A stretch of DNA of 64,000 nt from Chitinophagales bacterium 33-2 (lineage in GTDB: Bacteria > Bacteroidota > Bacteroidia > Chitinophagales > Chitinophagaceae), in the NCBI GenBank assembly GCA_002050435.1, contig MWYV01000028.1, forward strand, positions 1 through 64,000, in the 5' to 3' direction. Positions within the stretch are counted from its first letter, which is position 1. Every line of letters begins with the position of its first letter. Below the pieces are notes generated by a model that was not told the DNA's origin, ran no database searches, and worked only from the letters and a program-made list of their open reading frames with translations. The position numbers were made by a program, and so were the translations under genes. Below are positions 272 through 43,492 of this stretch, piece by piece.

Positions 272-1465
272 TTACCATGGGAGCTTGTCCAGCGGGCTCT
301 GGATGGCCGTCAGGCTTTTAACACTCACATGGGTATACCGCAAAGTTGTCTTCATGCTCTGATGACCCAGTAATTCCTGTATATATCTAATATCGGTTCC
401 GCCCTCCAGTAAATGGGTGGCATAGGAATGCCGTAGCGAATGGATGCTGCCTCTCTTCTTTACTTTTGCCCTGATCTTGGCATTGGCCAGCACAATCTGC
501 GCACTCCGCGTGCCATAGGCTCCTCCTCCCACACCTTCAAATAAATAATCCTTCGGACGGTAAACTTTAAAATATTCCCTCAGCGTTTCCAGCAATACCT
601 TGCTCAGGGGAACGATCCTACTCTTCTTGCCCTTTCCCTCCCGCACATGAATCGTCATCCGCTTTGAATCAATATCCAACACTTTTAAATTAACCAGCTC
701 ACTCACCCGCAACCCAGCAGAATAAGCTGTCATCAACAAGGCCTTGTGCTTCAGATTTTCTACGCTCCTGATGATCTGTACAACCTCTTCCTCCGCCAAT
801 ATATCTGGTAGTAACTGTGGCTTTTTTGGACGTGGAAGATCATAAAATTCTACTTCCCGGTTTTCTACTTTCTCAAAAAAAAATTTAAGGGCACTCACCG
901 TGGTGTGAACATGAGTTTCACTGTATTTCTTAAATTTTAACAGCCATAATAAATAGGAGAGTACCTGCTTTTTCTCAAGATCTTGCACATTCGCCTGCCC
1001 AAGCAGCCTTAATAAATATAAAAATTCGGTTGAATAGGTCCTGATCGTATTCGGACTATAACCTTTCAACACCAACATCTCTTTAAACTCTTTAAATGCT
1101 TTTAGATTGAAATCTGAAAGCGGAAACTCAATCAGCATTTTGGATTTTACTTTCGTCAGCTTTTTTTTGCTGGATAACATCAGGTGCGGCTTCCTTTGTT
1201 CCAGGTATTTTTTTAATTCAGAAGTTTCAATAAAAACATCCTTCAAATGATTCACCAACAGCTCGTAGCTTGCCCTTTCCAGTGGTAAATACCAGACCCG
1301 GTGCGTCCTGCTCCATTTAACACCCGGAACCATCTTGATCCTATTATATAAGGCGCGGACAGAAAAATAAATACCCATATTTTCCTGGTCCCTGTGGAAA
1401 AATGGCTTTAATGCAATCATGTATCCTTTTCTCTGCAAATTTCTTAAACAGATCTTCCAAACCAT
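272..1465 (-). CDS. Tyrosine-type recombinase/integrase (XerC/D-like)
   Basis: A 397-residue site-specific recombinase that cuts and rejoins DNA through a tyrosine. All catalytic residues are visible: Arg253 in GLRVSEL, Lys in the following GKGKK beta-hairpin, HSLRH with His342 and Arg345, His368 in LLGHQ, and nucleophile Tyr377 in LRYTH. A SAM-like core-binding region spans about residues 115-205. The first ~90 residues form an unusual extra domain ending near the motif HRVWYLPL, not present in XerC/XerD, which are about 300 aa. It is isolated in the window: no excisionase, phage gene or tRNA lies beside it, and no flanking repeat was recognised. An internal Met16 is an alternative start. 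It could be a remnant of an integrated element or a chromosomal recombinase with unknown targets; the family call is secure, the substrate is not. Confidence 0.93.
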   Translation of the reverse strand: MVWKICLRNLQRKGYMIALKPFFHRDQENMGIYFSVRALYNRIKMVPGVKWSRTHRVWYLPLERASYELLVNHLKDVFIETSELKKYLEQRKPHLMLSSKKKLTKVKSKMLIEFPLSDFNLKAFKEFKEMLVLKGYSPNTIRTYSTEFLYLLRLLGQANVQDLEKKQVLSYLLWLLKFKKYSETHVHTTVSALKFFFEKVENREVEFYDLPRPKKPQLLPDILAEEEVVQIIRSVENLKHKALLMTAYSAGLRVSELVNLKVLDIDSKRMTIHVREGKGKKSRIVPLSKVLLETLREYFKVYRPKDYLFEGVGGGAYGTRSAQIVLANAKIRAKVKKRGSIHSLRHSYATHLLEGGTDIRYIQELLGHQSMKTTLRYTHVSVKSLTAIQSPLDKLPW

Positions 1466-38592: not shown

Positions 38593-39209
38593 GCCGGAAT
38601 GAAGCACCCATCACTCAGTTAAACCATTATCTTCCTGAAGGAACCTTTGATCTCGTTGTTCAGTTTCTTGAACATTTTAAAGTACACCTTACCGTTGCCA
38701 GGGAAAGAAAATCGATTCTTGGTGATTACAGGCACCGCACAGGCAACCGCAACCACAGGATCAGCGTGAATGGTAACCTGAACCAATTTGCATTTTTGAT
38801 CACGCTTCTGCACGAACTGGCGCATTTACTCACTTTTGAAAAATACGGGAATGCGGTGCAGTCGCATGGAAAAGAATGGAAGCATGTATTTGGGCACCTG
38901 CTCGCAAAATTTATCGAACAAAAAGTTTTTCCTGAAGATATCCGTGCTGCTCTCATGCACTCTTTGCATAATCCTGCAGCATCAAGTTGTGCTGATGAAG
39001 TTTTATTAAGAACACTTAAACTTTATGACCAGCAGCAGAACAGTTTGATTTTTGTTGAAGACATTCCCGATGGTGCATATTTTAAAACGCATGATGGCCG
39101 GATCTTTCAGAAAGGAGAAAAGCTCCGGAAACGCTTTCGCTGTATTGAAGTGAAAACAAAAAGAATTTATTTGTTCAGTCCTGTATATGAAGCGGAACTG
39201 GTCAGCTGA
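38589..39209 (+). CDS. SprT-like zinc metallopeptidase domain protein
   Basis: A 206-residue protein with the SprT zinc motif HELAH (75-79) in LITLLHELAHLLTFEKYG and the third-ligand region HGKEWKHVF (from His93). The family includes bacterial SprT and eukaryotic SPRTN, which degrades DNA-protein crosslinks; bacterial roles are poorly defined. Starts inside the previous gene (ATGA overlap) and converges with the GNAT gene by 8 nt. Confidence 0.88.
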   Translation: MSRNEAPITQLNHYLPEGTFDLVVQFLEHFKVHLTVARERKSILGDYRHRTGNRNHRISVNGNLNQFAFLITLLHELAHLLTFEKYGNAVQSHGKEWKHVFGHLLAKFIEQKVFPEDIRAALMHSLHNPAASSCADEVLLRTLKLYDQQQNSLIFVEDIPDGAYFKTHDGRIFQKGEKLRKRFRCIEVKTKRIYLFSPVYEAELVS

Positions 39210-39714
39210 TATCCTTCATCATCCATAACCCGCATCCAAAATGACCAGTGGCGCCCATTGGTCCGTCAAGATAATGGAATCCAAATTTTTCATAGGTCTT
39301 TAAAGCCTGTTTCAATTGCGGCATGCTTTCGAGGTAAACTTTTTTAAACCCTTGATCCTTAGCTGCCGAAAGTGATCTTTCAATCAGCGTTTTTCCCAGG
39401 CCAATTCCTCTTGCCTTTTTCAGCAGGTACATTTTAACCAGTTCGCAGGTGTCTTCAGGCAGTCCGGGTGAGGGGAAAATGCCACCCCCACCAACAATTT
39501 CCTGGTCAATAGTGGCAACGAAATATACAGAGCGGGGATCGCTTTTAAATAATTCAAACAAAGCATCGGTGGTAGGGTCATAATAAACCGTGCCTGGAAG
39601 GTGGGCTCCAAATTCTTCCAGCGTATTCCTGATCACATTTGCAAGAGCGTGATTGTCTTCCTTCCGGATGTTCCTGATAACAGAATTTTCTATGGTCGGC
39701 GGAATCTTTTCCAT
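39202..39714 (-). CDS. GNAT family N-acetyltransferase
   Basis: A 170-residue acetyltransferase with the acetyl-CoA motif ARGIGLGKTLIERSL (motif A) and KVYLESMPQLKQALKTYEKFGFHYL (motif B). The substrate is unknown. Its start is separated from the displaced sucC end by a strong hairpin terminator. Confidence 0.88.
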   Translation of the reverse strand: MEKIPPTIENSVIRNIRKEDNHALANVIRNTLEEFGAHLPGTVYYDPTTDALFELFKSDPRSVYFVATIDQEIVGGGGIFPSPGLPEDTCELVKMYLLKKARGIGLGKTLIERSLSAAKDQGFKKVYLESMPQLKQALKTYEKFGFHYLDGPMGATGHFGCGLWMMKDIS

Positions 39715-39715
39715 A

Positions 39716-39743
39716 AATAAAAATGTCCCGCCAGGCGGGACAT
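39716..39743 (-). terminator. Terminator behind the displaced sucC 3' end
   Basis: Nine-base stem ATGTCCCGC/GCGGGACAT (39723-39743) followed on the minus strand by TTTTTATTT. It lies 23 nt past the TGA of the truncated sucC copy and is probably the original sucC terminator. Confidence 0.8.
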
Positions 39744-39765
39744 CGAAATTATCATTTTTTCTGCA

Positions 39766-39861
39766 TCAGGCAGCAGCTACGGCTTTATTTACCAATTCTG
39801 CAGCTTCGCTTAACTGAATGGCCGACTGCACTTTCAATCCGCTTTCATCAATCAGCTTCAT
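39766..39861 (-). pseudogene. sucC: Displaced 3' end of sucC
   Basis: The last 30 codons of sucC, read from AAG (Lys) to a TGA stop at 39766, preceded by a chance ATG. The 68 bases at 39791-39858 equal 42300-42367 of sucC exactly. The remaining codons encode the same V-N-K-A-V-A-A-A end, but the first seven all differ at the third base, and the stop is TGA rather than TAG. The fragment keeps a terminator of its own. This fits a gene end displaced by insertion of the intervening DNA. A tandem duplication followed by loss is the main alternative. Confidence 0.9.
39791..39858 (-). repeat. 68-bp perfect direct repeat, distal copy (candidate att site)
   Basis: Identical over 68 bp and in the same orientation as 42300-42367 in sucC. 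Covers codons Lys-Leu-Ile-Asp through Glu-Leu plus two bases of the next codon. Confidence 0.95.
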
Positions 39862-40079
39862 TTAACGCCGTTGTTGGTAGGAGGCTTAAGCAATTTGCTT
39901 TGGTGCCAACACCATACAAACTTTTAGGAAGGTTATTTATTTTTTGCATCTCTTACAGAGTGAAACATCTACAACAGCGTCAAAAATTAAGTCCTGATGG
40001 ATAAATAAAATAAATTAACCCTGAAATTTTGACAGCGTTTTTTTATGATCAGCATTTACAGGGCACCTCCAACTGATAT

Positions 40080-41351
40080 TTAATCTTCCTTAGGATAAAT
40101 CATTGGTGGCATGTTTAAAATATGCCTCACCACAGTCTCCACCGGCTTAAATTTAAAATCACCCAACAGTTTGCCGTTAATAAACACGGAAGGTGTTTCC
40201 AGTATTCCCAATTGCTTTGCCTGTGCCACAGTTCTGGCAATTTTATTCCTTGCAGCTTCACTTGTACGGTAAATTTCAAACTGGTTGTGATTCAGCTTCA
40301 GACTGTCAGCAATAGAACAAACAGTAACAAGTCCCTTATCAAGATTATAGCGGAATGCGGAGTCATGAAATTCCCAGAACTTTCCCTGTTGCCTTGCAGC
40401 TTCGGCAGCCCATGCCACTTCGCAGCCTCTTGGGTGCATATCCGTTTCAATGGTATTATTACAGGCAATATTCAAAGGAAAGTATTTATAAACAGTATGT
40501 ACTTTGCCTGGGTATCTTTTATGGATTTCCCGTACTACTGCTGAAAAATAGTTGCAACCGCTGCATTGAAAATCACTGAACACAATTATCTCCACCGCCG
40601 AATTTCGTTCTCCTAATACAGGATCATCATCACCAACGGAGATTTCTTGTACGGAGGTATTATTATAGCCCGCTAAAAATTTTTGTGCGTCAAATTCCCG
40701 GCTTGTATTTATAGCATTCTGGCTAAAAAGATAAAGTCCTGAGTAAAGCATAGCTGCTAACAATAATACACTGCCAAGGGCAAGTCTTTTATAATTTGCT
40801 TCCTTTCCTCTTTTTGTGAAAACAAGCTTTCCCTCTTGTTTCAATTGATTGAAAAACTCATCCTGGGTATTGTTTACAAATTTGACAAGGCTCATAAAAA
40901 GCAAAAGGTTGAGCACATGCAGCGCAACACAGAAAGGGCAGAATAATTGCGGGTCAATGATCATCATGATTAACAAGGTGATGCTGGCAAGGCACCCTAA
41001 AAAAGAAAGCAGCAATAATAAAACAGGTGAAGCAGATTGGAAAGAACGCCAAATTCTTCCAGCAACAAGCAAAGCTAAAAGGGAAGCATAATACAGCAAT
41101 CCCCATGCTGCCAGCGGTAATCCTAATTGATTGGATACATCATTTTTCAATGCTGAGTCACAACCTTTACCAAATACTGCTGAACAAACATCTGTATTCA
41201 CCGCCTGGCCGGAAGCCAAAAGCCAGTAGCGGTAAAGGAGGTAGGCAGAAATTAAAATTCCAAGAGATAGGAGCAGATAAATTATAAGCTTTGCTAAAGA
41301 GAACCCTGTTTTTTGTTGGGGCAATATATTGTAAGCAGTTATTTGTTCCAT
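40080..41351 (-). CDS. VKOR-DsbA fusion disulfide-generating enzyme
   Basis: 423 residues from the ATG at 41351 (a TTG three codons upstream is possible). The N-terminal vitamin K epoxide reductase domain has about five membrane helices, loop cysteines Cys56 and Cys64 (VCSAVFGKGC), the GLPLAAWG segment, and the active-site CPFC (138-141). A periplasmic thioredoxin/DsbA-like domain follows, with CSGC (263-266) in FSDFQCSGCNYF and a cis-Pro loop at ETPSVFING. The fusion oxidises thiols in exported proteins and passes electrons to quinones. It is downstream of a secreted four-cysteine protein, separated by a strong hairpin. Confidence 0.92.
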   Translation of the reverse strand: MEQITAYNILPQQKTGFSLAKLIIYLLLSLGILISAYLLYRYWLLASGQAVNTDVCSAVFGKGCDSALKNDVSNQLGLPLAAWGLLYYASLLALLVAGRIWRSFQSASPVLLLLLSFLGCLASITLLIMMIIDPQLFCPFCVALHVLNLLLFMSLVKFVNNTQDEFFNQLKQEGKLVFTKRGKEANYKRLALGSVLLLAAMLYSGLYLFSQNAINTSREFDAQKFLAGYNNTSVQEISVGDDDPVLGERNSAVEIIVFSDFQCSGCNYFSAVVREIHKRYPGKVHTVYKYFPLNIACNNTIETDMHPRGCEVAWAAEAARQQGKFWEFHDSAFRYNLDKGLVTVCSIADSLKLNHNQFEIYRTSEAARNKIARTVAQAKQLGILETPSVFINGKLLGDFKFKPVETVVRHILNMPPMIYPKED

Positions 41352-41395
41352 AGATTCCAATTAAAAATTTCAATCAAAAAAGTACCGATAAAAGG

Positions 41396-41427
41396 AAAAC
41401 TGCGGCGTATCTAAACACCGCAGTTTT
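41396..41427. terminator. Bidirectional-type hairpin between the secreted-protein and VKOR genes
   Basis: Perfect ten-base inverted repeat AAAACTGCGG/CCGCAGTTTT (41396-41405 and 41418-41427) with a 12-base loop. The T-rich 3' arm suits termination on either strand. It lies 60 nt past the stop of the 113-aa gene, so it probably reduces read-through into the VKOR gene. Confidence 0.78.
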
Positions 41428-41489
41428 AAAAAAGTCCTTACTTTATTTAACCGGAAATCCATAACAGAAGCCCGGGGAATTGGCAGGTA

Positions 41490-41831
41490 TTAATGCACCT
41501 TGCAAGTGAGTGTTGCTTGTCCACTTGGAGTAACTACTTTATGCGTATCATCAGTTATTCCTAAAAATGTAGAGCACAAAAACCCACTTGCTTTCCAAAC
41601 CTTACCTGTAGAATTACTCACACCGGAAGCATGGCACTTCAAGATGCTATTTCCTGATGAAGTAACCACAGAGTGAGATTCATCAGTAAATTGAAAACCA
41701 TCAGGACCTGTAATGCCGCAAGTAAAATCTTTGATTACATCTGCGGACTCCATAGCAGTATTGCTTCTCCAGCTAACTAAACTGATAGCGATAACAAATA
41801 GCGCAATGAAAGGGATAATTAATTTTTTCAT
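41490..41831 (-). CDS. Small secreted four-cysteine protein with internal repeat
   Basis: 113 residues with a signal peptide (1-~22). The mature protein is a two-fold pseudo-repeat, residues 36-70 and 84-113. Each half fits F-x-C-x(7-10)-T-D-[DE]-[ST]-H-x-V-V-T-x-S-G-x(3)-L-x-C, giving Cys38/Cys66 and Cys86/Cys110. Paired cysteines in an exported protein next to a disulfide-forming enzyme suggest that they form disulfides. I recall similar small proteins annotated as hypothetical in other bacteria; no function is known to me. It is the first gene of the two-gene cargo. Confidence 0.8.
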   Translation of the reverse strand: MKKLIIPFIALFVIAISLVSWRSNTAMESADVIKDFTCGITGPDGFQFTDESHSVVTSSGNSILKCHASGVSNSTGKVWKASGFLCSTFLGITDDTHKVVTPSGQATLTCKVH

Positions 41832-42208
41832 GATTTACGTTTTTAAATTGTTTTGGTAAATTGATTTTTGAAAAACATGGGGTTGAAGATCAACCTCTGA
41901 TTGATATAACAAGTGAAGGACTTTTAAATAGAAAGGCACTTTCATTGTAGAAAGTATTAAATAAAGAATTAAGAAAAGTAGGGCAGGTTAGACTAAGAGG
42001 TAATAACAAGGATATAAAACAAATTGGGGCTTTTCAATAATACTGTGTCCGAAGCAAAGATTACATAGGGGCAATGAGTGAGATTAGATAGGGTGGTTTT
42101 GGTTGATGTTTGTTTAAGGTAGACAATTGAATAATACCTCCCAATTTTTTTTTCATTTATTGCAAATTTTTTTTTTCAAAAAATATAAACTGTTGACAGT
42201 TAGTACAT
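41832..42208. other. Gene-free AT-rich segment inside the putative element
   Basis: Upstream region of the secreted-protein gene. It contains A/T homopolymers (around 42140-42185) and no open frame of note. Promoter elements of the TAnnTTTG type were not recognised. Confidence 0.5.
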
Positions 42209-42239
42209 AAAAAAGCTACAAGTAAATCACCTGTAGCTT
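42209..42239 (-). terminator. Terminator of the intact sucC
   Basis: Stem GCTACA/TGTAGC (42215-42237) with six T residues following on the minus strand. It differs entirely from the terminator behind the displaced sucC end. Confidence 0.75.
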
Positions 42240-42274
42240 CAATATTAAATATTCAATCTAAAATTCTAGATTTC

Positions 42275-43492
42275 CTAGGCTGCTGCCACCGCCTTGTTCA
42301 CCAATTCTGCAGCTTCGCTTAACTGAATGGCCGACTGCACTTTCAATCCGCTTTCATCAATCAGCTTTTTTGCTTCCACAGCATTGGTGCCCTGCAGCCT
42401 TACAATAATAGGAATGTTGATATTGCCCATGTTTTTATAAGCATCGATCACCCCTTGTGCTACGCGGTCGCAACGCACAATGCCTCCAAAAATATTGATA
42501 AGAATGGCTTTTACTTTAGGGTCTTTCATAATGATGCGAAAACCTGCTTCCACTGTCTGCGCGTTTGCAGTTCCACCTACATCCAGAAAGTTGGCTGGTT
42601 CACCGCCACTCAGTTGGATCATATCCATGGTGGCCATGGCCAGTCCGGCGCCATTCACCATACATCCTACATTGCCATCAAGTTTTACAAAGTTCAGGTT
42701 GTGCTTTCCAGCTTCCACTTCCGTGGGGTCTTCTTCAGCAACATCTCTCATTGCAGCCAGATCGGGATGACGCATAAGCGCGTTGTCATCTATGCTCATT
42801 TTACAGTCCACTGCAACCACTTTGTTATCCGCTGCTTTAAACAATGGATTGATCTCGAGCATGGCGCAGTCGAGACTGATATAGGCCTGGTAAAGGTTGG
42901 TAACAAACTTCACCATATTTTTAAATGCATTGCCTTTCAAGCCAAAATTGAAAGCGATCTTTCTTGCCTGGTATCCCTGCAAGGCACCACCAGGGTGTAC
43001 CCACTCTTTAAAAATTTTATCAGGTGTGTTGTGTGCTACTTCTTCTATATCCATTCCACCTTCGGTGCTGTACATGATCACGTTCGTACCAGTTGCGCGG
43101 TCGAGCAGGATAGATAAATAAAACTCCTGACGCTCACTGTCTCCTTCATAATACATGTCCTGGGCAACCAGGATCTTGTTAACCACCTTTCCCGCTTCGC
43201 CGGTTTGAATGGTTACGAGTGTACCATTCAGCATTTTCTGGGCAACATCTGAAACCTCATCAAGCGATTTCACCACCTTCACTCCATTAACCCCAGTTTC
43301 ACGGATCTTTCCTTTACCCCGGCCACCCGCGTGGATCTGGGCTTTAATTACCGCAAAGCTGCTCCCGTACTGGGTTTTGATCTGCCTGTAGGCTTCTTCC
43401 GCTTCGTGGGCTGTGCTGGCCGCCATGCCTTCCTGCACCGGGACATTAAATTTCTTAAGTAGTTCTTTTGCCTGATATTCGTGCAAATTCAT
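42275..43492 (-). CDS. sucC: ADP-forming succinate-CoA ligase subunit beta
   Basis: 405-residue ATP-grasp subunit that couples succinyl-CoA cleavage to ATP formation in the TCA cycle. Motifs: MNLHEYQAKELLKKF at the start, HAGGRGKG (52-59), DCAMLEINPLF, and NIFGGIVRCDRVAQG in the C-terminal CoA-ligase domain. Length is typical. The alpha subunit (sucD) is not adjacent. Its last codons and terminator appear to have been supplied by the inserted DNA, with the protein sequence unchanged. Confidence 0.96.
   Translation of the reverse strand: MNLHEYQAKELLKKFNVPVQEGMAASTAHEAEEAYRQIKTQYGSSFAVIKAQIHAGGRGKGKIRETGVNGVKVVKSLDEVSDVAQKMLNGTLVTIQTGEAGKVVNKILVAQDMYYEGDSERQEFYLSILLDRATGTNVIMYSTEGGMDIEEVAHNTPDKIFKEWVHPGGALQGYQARKIAFNFGLKGNAFKNMVKFVTNLYQAYISLDCAMLEINPLFKAADNKVVAVDCKMSIDDNALMRHPDLAAMRDVAEEDPTEVEAGKHNLNFVKLDGNVGCMVNGAGLAMATMDMIQLSGGEPANFLDVGGTANAQTVEAGFRIIMKDPKVKAILINIFGGIVRCDRVAQGVIDAYKNMGNINIPIIVRLQGTNAVEAKKLIDESGLKVQSAIQLSEAAELVNKAVAAA
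42300..42367 (-). repeat. 68-bp perfect direct repeat, sucC-internal copy (candidate att site)
   Basis: Partner of 39791-39858. It lies within the sucC coding sequence, ending two bases into the first of the seven synonymously altered codons. Confidence 0.95.

Follow-up and report, generated by a model that had tools for sequence, protein, structure and literature searches.

The 64,000-nt stretch of contig MWYV01000028.1 of Chitinophagales bacterium 33-2 that we analyzed (positions 1 to 64,000, hereafter the window) carries two copies of the 3' end of sucC, the gene for the succinyl-CoA synthetase beta chain. One copy ends the intact gene, and the other, comprising the last 30 sucC codons and a stop, stands 2.4 kb downstream behind two accessory genes, one for a 113-amino acid protein (S113) and one for a VKOR-DsbA fusion. 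The explanation we favor, to which we give about an even chance, is a recombination event that was anchored by homology in sucC at one end and joined illegitimately at the far end. On the minus strand the order is sucC, a hairpin, S113, the VKOR-DsbA gene, the displaced sucC end (39766-39858), a second hairpin and a GNAT acetyltransferase gene, and the locus contains the following features:

42275-43492, minus strand: sucC, succinyl-CoA synthetase beta chain, intact open reading frame of 405 amino acids, 87-90% amino acid identity to same-genus sucC
42300-42367, minus strand: 68-bp block, copy in the gene (codons 376-397 and two bases of codon 398), identical to 39791-39858
42275-42299, minus strand: tail A, the end of sucC, with seven synonymous changes relative to tail B and a TAG stop, by sequence comparison
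42212-42240, minus strand: terminator-like hairpin 3' of sucC, by hairpin scoring; its flank shares homology with those 3' of sucC in genome G003 and on contig C203 (assembly G337)
39859-42299, no strand assigned: inserted segment according to the favored model, 2441 bp; S113 and VKOR-DsbA are not beside sucC in 16 relatives
41490-41831, minus strand: S113, open reading frame for a 113-amino acid protein with a signal-peptide-like N-terminus, judged by eye
41396-41427, minus strand: hairpin between the S113 and VKOR-DsbA genes, a possible attenuator, by hairpin scoring
40080-41360, minus strand: VKOR-DsbA (Thioredoxin_4) fusion, 426 amino acids (PF07884, 6e-17; PF13462, 3e-16; PF01323, 3e-10)
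39791-39858, minus strand: 68-bp block, displaced copy, identical to 42300-42367
39766-39790, minus strand: tail B, displaced, with a TGA stop, by sequence comparison
39722-39744, minus strand: GC-rich terminator-like hairpin between the displaced sucC end and the GNAT gene, by hairpin scoring
39202-39714, minus strand: GNAT acetyltransferase, a sucC neighbor elsewhere in the genus (PF00583, 4e-18)

The two copies of the block (39791-39858 and 42300-42367) are identical in 68 of 68 bases, in the same orientation and at an offset of 2509, and form part of a longer repeat (39768-39858 and 42277-42367) of 91 nt with 92% identity. When the copies are compared in frame, 22 full codons are the same, the next seven have changes in the third base only, and the eighth (GCC) is again the same, after which sucC ends with TAG and the displaced copy with TGA. 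The transition from 0/22 changed codons in the block to 7/8 in the tail is abrupt (Fisher p ~4e-6). Among 38 other distinct sucC sequences (the filter passed up to 24 mismatches) the nearest has nine mismatches to the 68-mer, which excludes chance identity of the copies. An earlier note, made from the sequence alone, had reported the identical block, the run of third-base differences with unlike stops and a separate terminator for each copy, and all of these are borne out, the terminators corresponding to the hairpins at 42212-42240 and 39722-39744. The second of them had been placed at 39716-39743; a terminator is present there, but it scores as 39722-39744, leaving 7 nt to the GNAT start codon. 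In total, terminator-like hairpins occur at eight sites in the region, compared with 3.3 expected. Between the two sucC ends only S113 and VKOR-DsbA are convincing genes, and the G+C content is 37% in 39859-42274 versus 47% in sucC. As also noted earlier, there is no recombinase among the genes of the insert; in particular, neither of the two encodes a serine recombinase or a relaxase, classes that were looked for in the insert and not genome-wide. Rfam yielded two matches, both under the gathering score.

Of the 17 other genomes in the genus, 16 yielded sucC, and the stretches around it were taken from each of these. The GNAT gene is located downstream of sucC in eight of these loci, seven of which have no cargo between the sucC and GNAT matches, the gap being 30 nt in G017 and 373-784 nt in G009, G010, G011, G007, G015, and G012. 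Neither S113 nor the VKOR-DsbA gene is present in any of the 16 stretches. Because seven of the 16 loci of the genus have GNAT next to sucC with no cargo and a gap of at most 0.8 kb, the cargo behind sucC is an insertion, as had been proposed, and the displaced sucC end stands where a sucC-GNAT junction is expected. No GNAT match was found in the 9-12 kb taken downstream of sucC in G002, G004, G005, G006, G008, and G014, and the contigs of G003 and G016 end 0.8 and 0.3 kb after sucC, respectively. None of the seven unoccupied sites belongs to the same species, and the exact old junction is not visible among them because the nearest relatives are just 75-78% identical in sucC DNA. The comparison of tail codons with those of relatives, suggested earlier as a check, did not discriminate: the relatives differ from both copies in tail and terminator, and G010, which lacks the insert, shares the TGA stop with the displaced copy but has different tail codons and a different terminator. 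In the remaining GNAT-containing locus (G013, L122:9873-12486) the sucC-GNAT gap is 2.65 kb and is occupied by a different gene set (WYL-type regulator, DinB-like and VOC-like genes, judged by eye), and hence this interval may be a place of repeated gene gain.

According to the favored explanation, the incoming segment would have consisted of a sucC 3' end from this genus (tail A and its terminator) followed by the S113/VKOR-DsbA operon, and would have landed between sucC and GNAT. One end would have been anchored via homology in the sucC 3' end, and the other joined illegitimately before base 39858, leaving the host's own 68 bp on both sides and pushing the old tail, stop and terminator 2.4 kb downstream; no element-borne recombinase would be required. 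The 42299/42300 boundary, where 0/68 differences give way to 7/8 changed codons, looks like a recombination junction. In the simplest reading both 68-bp blocks would be the host's own sequence, because a donor carrying tail A should differ in the block, the nearest other sucC having nine mismatches. The homologous anchor at this end is reflected in an in-frame junction inside sucC with a sucC-like flank behind it: the 100 nt past the present stop (flank A) are similar to the sucC flank of G003 (z 5.7, 0/500 shuffles), with shared runs on either side of the hairpin, and to that of C203 (z 4.3, 0/500 shuffles), a contig on which the mixed assembly G337 carries the sucC of a relative. Given this homology of flank A to sucC flanks in two relatives, tail A probably belongs to a genuine locus of the gene within the genus. 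Weaker similarities to G013 and G011 (4/500 each) and G002 (6/500) fail after allowing for the 17 flanks tested. We infer that the far junction was illegitimate, that a single event was involved, and that tail A is the newcomer.

A similar route has been proposed for other loci. In the available part of PMC5361080 it is proposed for displaced Vibrio cholerae effector genes, and the same idea is mentioned for Rhs genes. The excerpted results of PMC3240628 report that in Escherichia coli 56 of 60 unexpected recombinant clones gave the product expected of a duplication of the lacZ end, and that the duplications in the 14 sequenced clones measured 109-950 bp; they are attributed there to a single crossover involving a truncated circle, truly illegitimate events having been rare. 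The type VI secretion effector/immunity modules of V. cholerae and the Rhs C-termini, as presented in the same part of PMC5361080, resemble our case in that a new gene end with downstream cargo is inserted and the old part remains downstream; they differ from it in that here the end belongs to a housekeeping gene, the protein is unchanged, and there is an exact 68-bp duplication.

Several observations weigh against this explanation. Homology-facilitated illegitimate recombination is rare, as stated in the accessible portions of both papers (PMC5361080, PMC3240628), and the in-frame junction that rebuilds the end of a core gene is just what is typical of site-specific elements. The single-crossover version would need either a donor matching the host over the 68 bp or heteroduplex repair. 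The flanks of 12 of the 17 relatives have no notable similarity to flank A, which could itself be native given the similar terminator in G013, reversing the direction. A donor locus in which S113/VKOR-DsbA lies behind sucC did not turn up: sucC is not beside the pair in the other five genomes that have it, within up to ~1.5 kb on each side and within 18 kb in G002, the check in G391, G313, G411, and G661 being of listed reading frames rather than a sucC search. Finally, the far junction may not be free of homology. The segment 39859-39940 is weakly and collinearly similar to the part of the window's own sucC that immediately precedes the 68-bp block (29/40 aligned columns), and for the 80 nt before the displaced block shuffled sequences did as well in 6/1000 (loose), 35/1000 (strict) and 126/1000 (anchored) cases; 17 of 6224 window 80-mers matched the own sucC equally well, and the similarity is weaker over 150 and 215 nt. 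Against 39 other sucC sequences the same 80 nt were equaled by 104/500 shuffles and 442/1284 window 80-mers, a comparison that does not support decayed sucC at this place, for which the own sucC is suggestive under loose scoring.

We searched for other displaced ends with sucC or its last 41 codons in ~680 Chitinophagales genomes (G000-G679), in overlapping sets of 58, 394, and 396. Matches were obtained in 54/58, 377/394, and 378/396 genomes and none in 4, 17, and 18, respectively, sucC thus being present in nearly all genomes searched (377/394 in one set). No other true displaced sucC end was detected, in a search that would miss ends far shorter or more diverged than the one in the window; a second case of the junction with other cargo, suggested earlier as a check, was accordingly not seen. 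A second sucC C-terminus outside the window genome (G000) was seen in five candidates, all rejected: strain variants account for those in G255 (97% identical and collinear past the gene) and G524 (93%), pieces from different lineages for those in G357 (80%) and G337, and a 141-bp contig-end overlap for that in G595. In G039, which has two sucC matches, the separate piece is N-terminal, not C-terminal. Viral contigs queried with sucC and S113 gave nothing useful.

The earlier note interpreted the 2.4 kb as an integrative element. Integrative elements that target the 3' ends of genes, such as e14 in icd, bring in a synonymous end and displace the old one. Like e14, the insert at sucC has replaced the gene end synonymously and displaced the old end, but it lacks an integrase, is the sole case found, and shows no core inverted repeat better than expected by chance. 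In this alternative, the main rival of the favored explanation, which we regard as a serious possibility although we lean against it, a site-specific element would target the sucC 3' end with a recombinase acting in trans or since lost, as a cis-mobilizable element (CIME) or a recombinase-less satellite flanked by attL and attR. It is in agreement with the att-like direct repeats at a gene 3' end, exact over 68 bp and imperfect over 91 bp, with the restored reading frame and terminator, with the AT-rich accessory cargo, and with the position of the insert between genes that adjoin elsewhere in the genus. In the available part of PMC5704250, CIMEs are defined as elements that have lost their genes for integration and transfer and retain attL and attR; similarly, the cargo here, at the end of a gene, is flanked by att-like direct repeats and has no recombination or transfer genes. 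In contrast to CIMEs, we found no related integrative and conjugative element or integrative and mobilizable element at sucC and no trace of a former recombinase, and our insert has a sucC-like flank past the stop and a mosaic repeat. An attP site would have to equal the host species over 68 bp and yet be saturated with silent changes alongside. The best inverted repeat in the 68-bp block, 7/11, was equaled by 181 of 300 shuffles, a test that weak real sites would escape. Tyrosine recombinases number 2-16 matches per genome in the 16 relatives, and on the sucC contig the first 44 kb downstream of the gene are free of them, five contigs (G003, G006, G007, G016, and G017) ending sooner, at 0.3-22 kb; the nearest are in G010, G011, G009, and G014. 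The window genome, a 90%-complete assembly in 76 contigs, has only two such matches, one at C5:60606 and the other in the window (272-1465). Thus, of the earlier interpretation, an insertion between sucC and GNAT is supported by the eight loci of 16 in which these genes are neighbors, and its nature as an element is not established, there being no second case among the ~680 genomes, no tyrosine recombinase in the stretches downstream of sucC in the 16 relatives, and no inverted repeat beyond chance.

The recombinase at 272-1465 is a 397-amino acid protein of the tyrosine class with ~120 extra N-terminal residues, 41 kb from sucC. It scores with XerA/Xer and integron-integrase models, and matches of ~400 amino acids were also found in several relatives.

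A particular form of the element hypothesis, which seems to us rather improbable, is that the sucC 3' end is the attachment site of a recombinase-less Bacteroidota satellite, in which the secreted-protein/VKOR-DsbA operon would be moved by a helper and attP would have been copied from a host sucC. With respect to sucC as an integration target (attB, integrase, prophage, genomic island), no description was found in the literature at the level of titles and abstracts, for the part of the results covered, in line with the earlier note, whose author knew of none; a list of integration targets naming sucC was not seen in the accessible part of PMC12884075.

The direction of the exchange could also be the reverse, with tail A and its terminator native and S113/VKOR-DsbA acquired downstream of these, while an exchange of the GNAT side brought along, or was accompanied by, the arrival of the displaced 68 bp with tail B and terminator B. 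We consider this quite improbable. Tail A is possibly native and tail B the newcomer because G013, the sister of G000 in the sucC tree (support 0.985), keeps a similar terminator directly behind sucC and has GNAT 2.65 kb further on. In addition, flank A resembles G003 and C203, whereas flank B (53 nt on the displaced side) has no clear match, the best being G012 with 7/500 shuffles. Nevertheless, the cargo and the displaced end would require separate explanations, the sister relationship has support of just 0.285 in a tree of four neighboring proteins, and in the sucC tree a genome from another genus falls within this genus.

It is very improbable that two genomes were falsely joined across the repeat during assembly. 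Such an artefact might be suspected in a 76-contig, 90%-complete assembly, the more so as the second sucC C-termini in five other assemblies are overlaps or strain mixtures; by reasoning, though, even a false join presupposes that in some genome the sequence at 39859 enters the 68-mer, and thus the duplication must exist somewhere. A tandem duplication of the whole region is disfavored, as nothing past the 91-nt repeat is clearly shared.

The cargo itself was compared with the same genome sets. S113 has no match in Pfam, NCBIfam, PHROGs, or PADLOC, and its residues Cys38, Cys66, and Cys110 are invariant across six sequences. VKOR-DsbA matches at 1e-25 or better occur in five of 394 genomes (G000, G002, G391, G313, and G411), with S113 preceding in all of them, and the search of 396 genomes with S113 adds G661, again with the VKOR-DsbA gene alongside, so that the two are adjacent in all six genomes with a clear S113. 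A contig scan with the VKOR protein gave 69 distant loci, which were left out of the comparison. Weak S113 matches in G029, G481, and G548 were discarded as short, lying inside larger reading frames, and lacking a VKOR neighbor. S113 is likely a secreted disulfide-bonded protein with its own oxidizing enzyme. Within the genus, searched by the VKOR-DsbA protein, the pair occurs in G002 only, at a different place; there the operon has no long direct repeat around it, the longest being 27 nt at 81% among the five largest of 15 families, and the non-coding flanks of the window operon have only short matches to G002. In G391 and G002 (L112:6262-8681 and L152:2732-3797) the pair also has a neighboring gene for another small protein whose start is signal-peptide-like: in G391 one of 160 amino acids, upstream on the same strand, and in G002 one of 165 amino acids, on the opposite strand past the VKOR gene.

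The scar at sucC is real but a single case, and there is no enzyme and no set of relatives to mark it as a mobile element. It provides a clean example of a core-gene end rebuilt by silent changes while accessory genes enter behind it, and a caution against taking direct repeats at the end of a gene as sufficient proof of a mobile element. The S113/VKOR-DsbA pair, with its small protein of no known family adjacent in 6/6 genomes, is a separate lead. Should an integrase come to light, this would make sucC an integration site for which the titles and abstracts covered gave no description, in a gene present in nearly all genomes searched.

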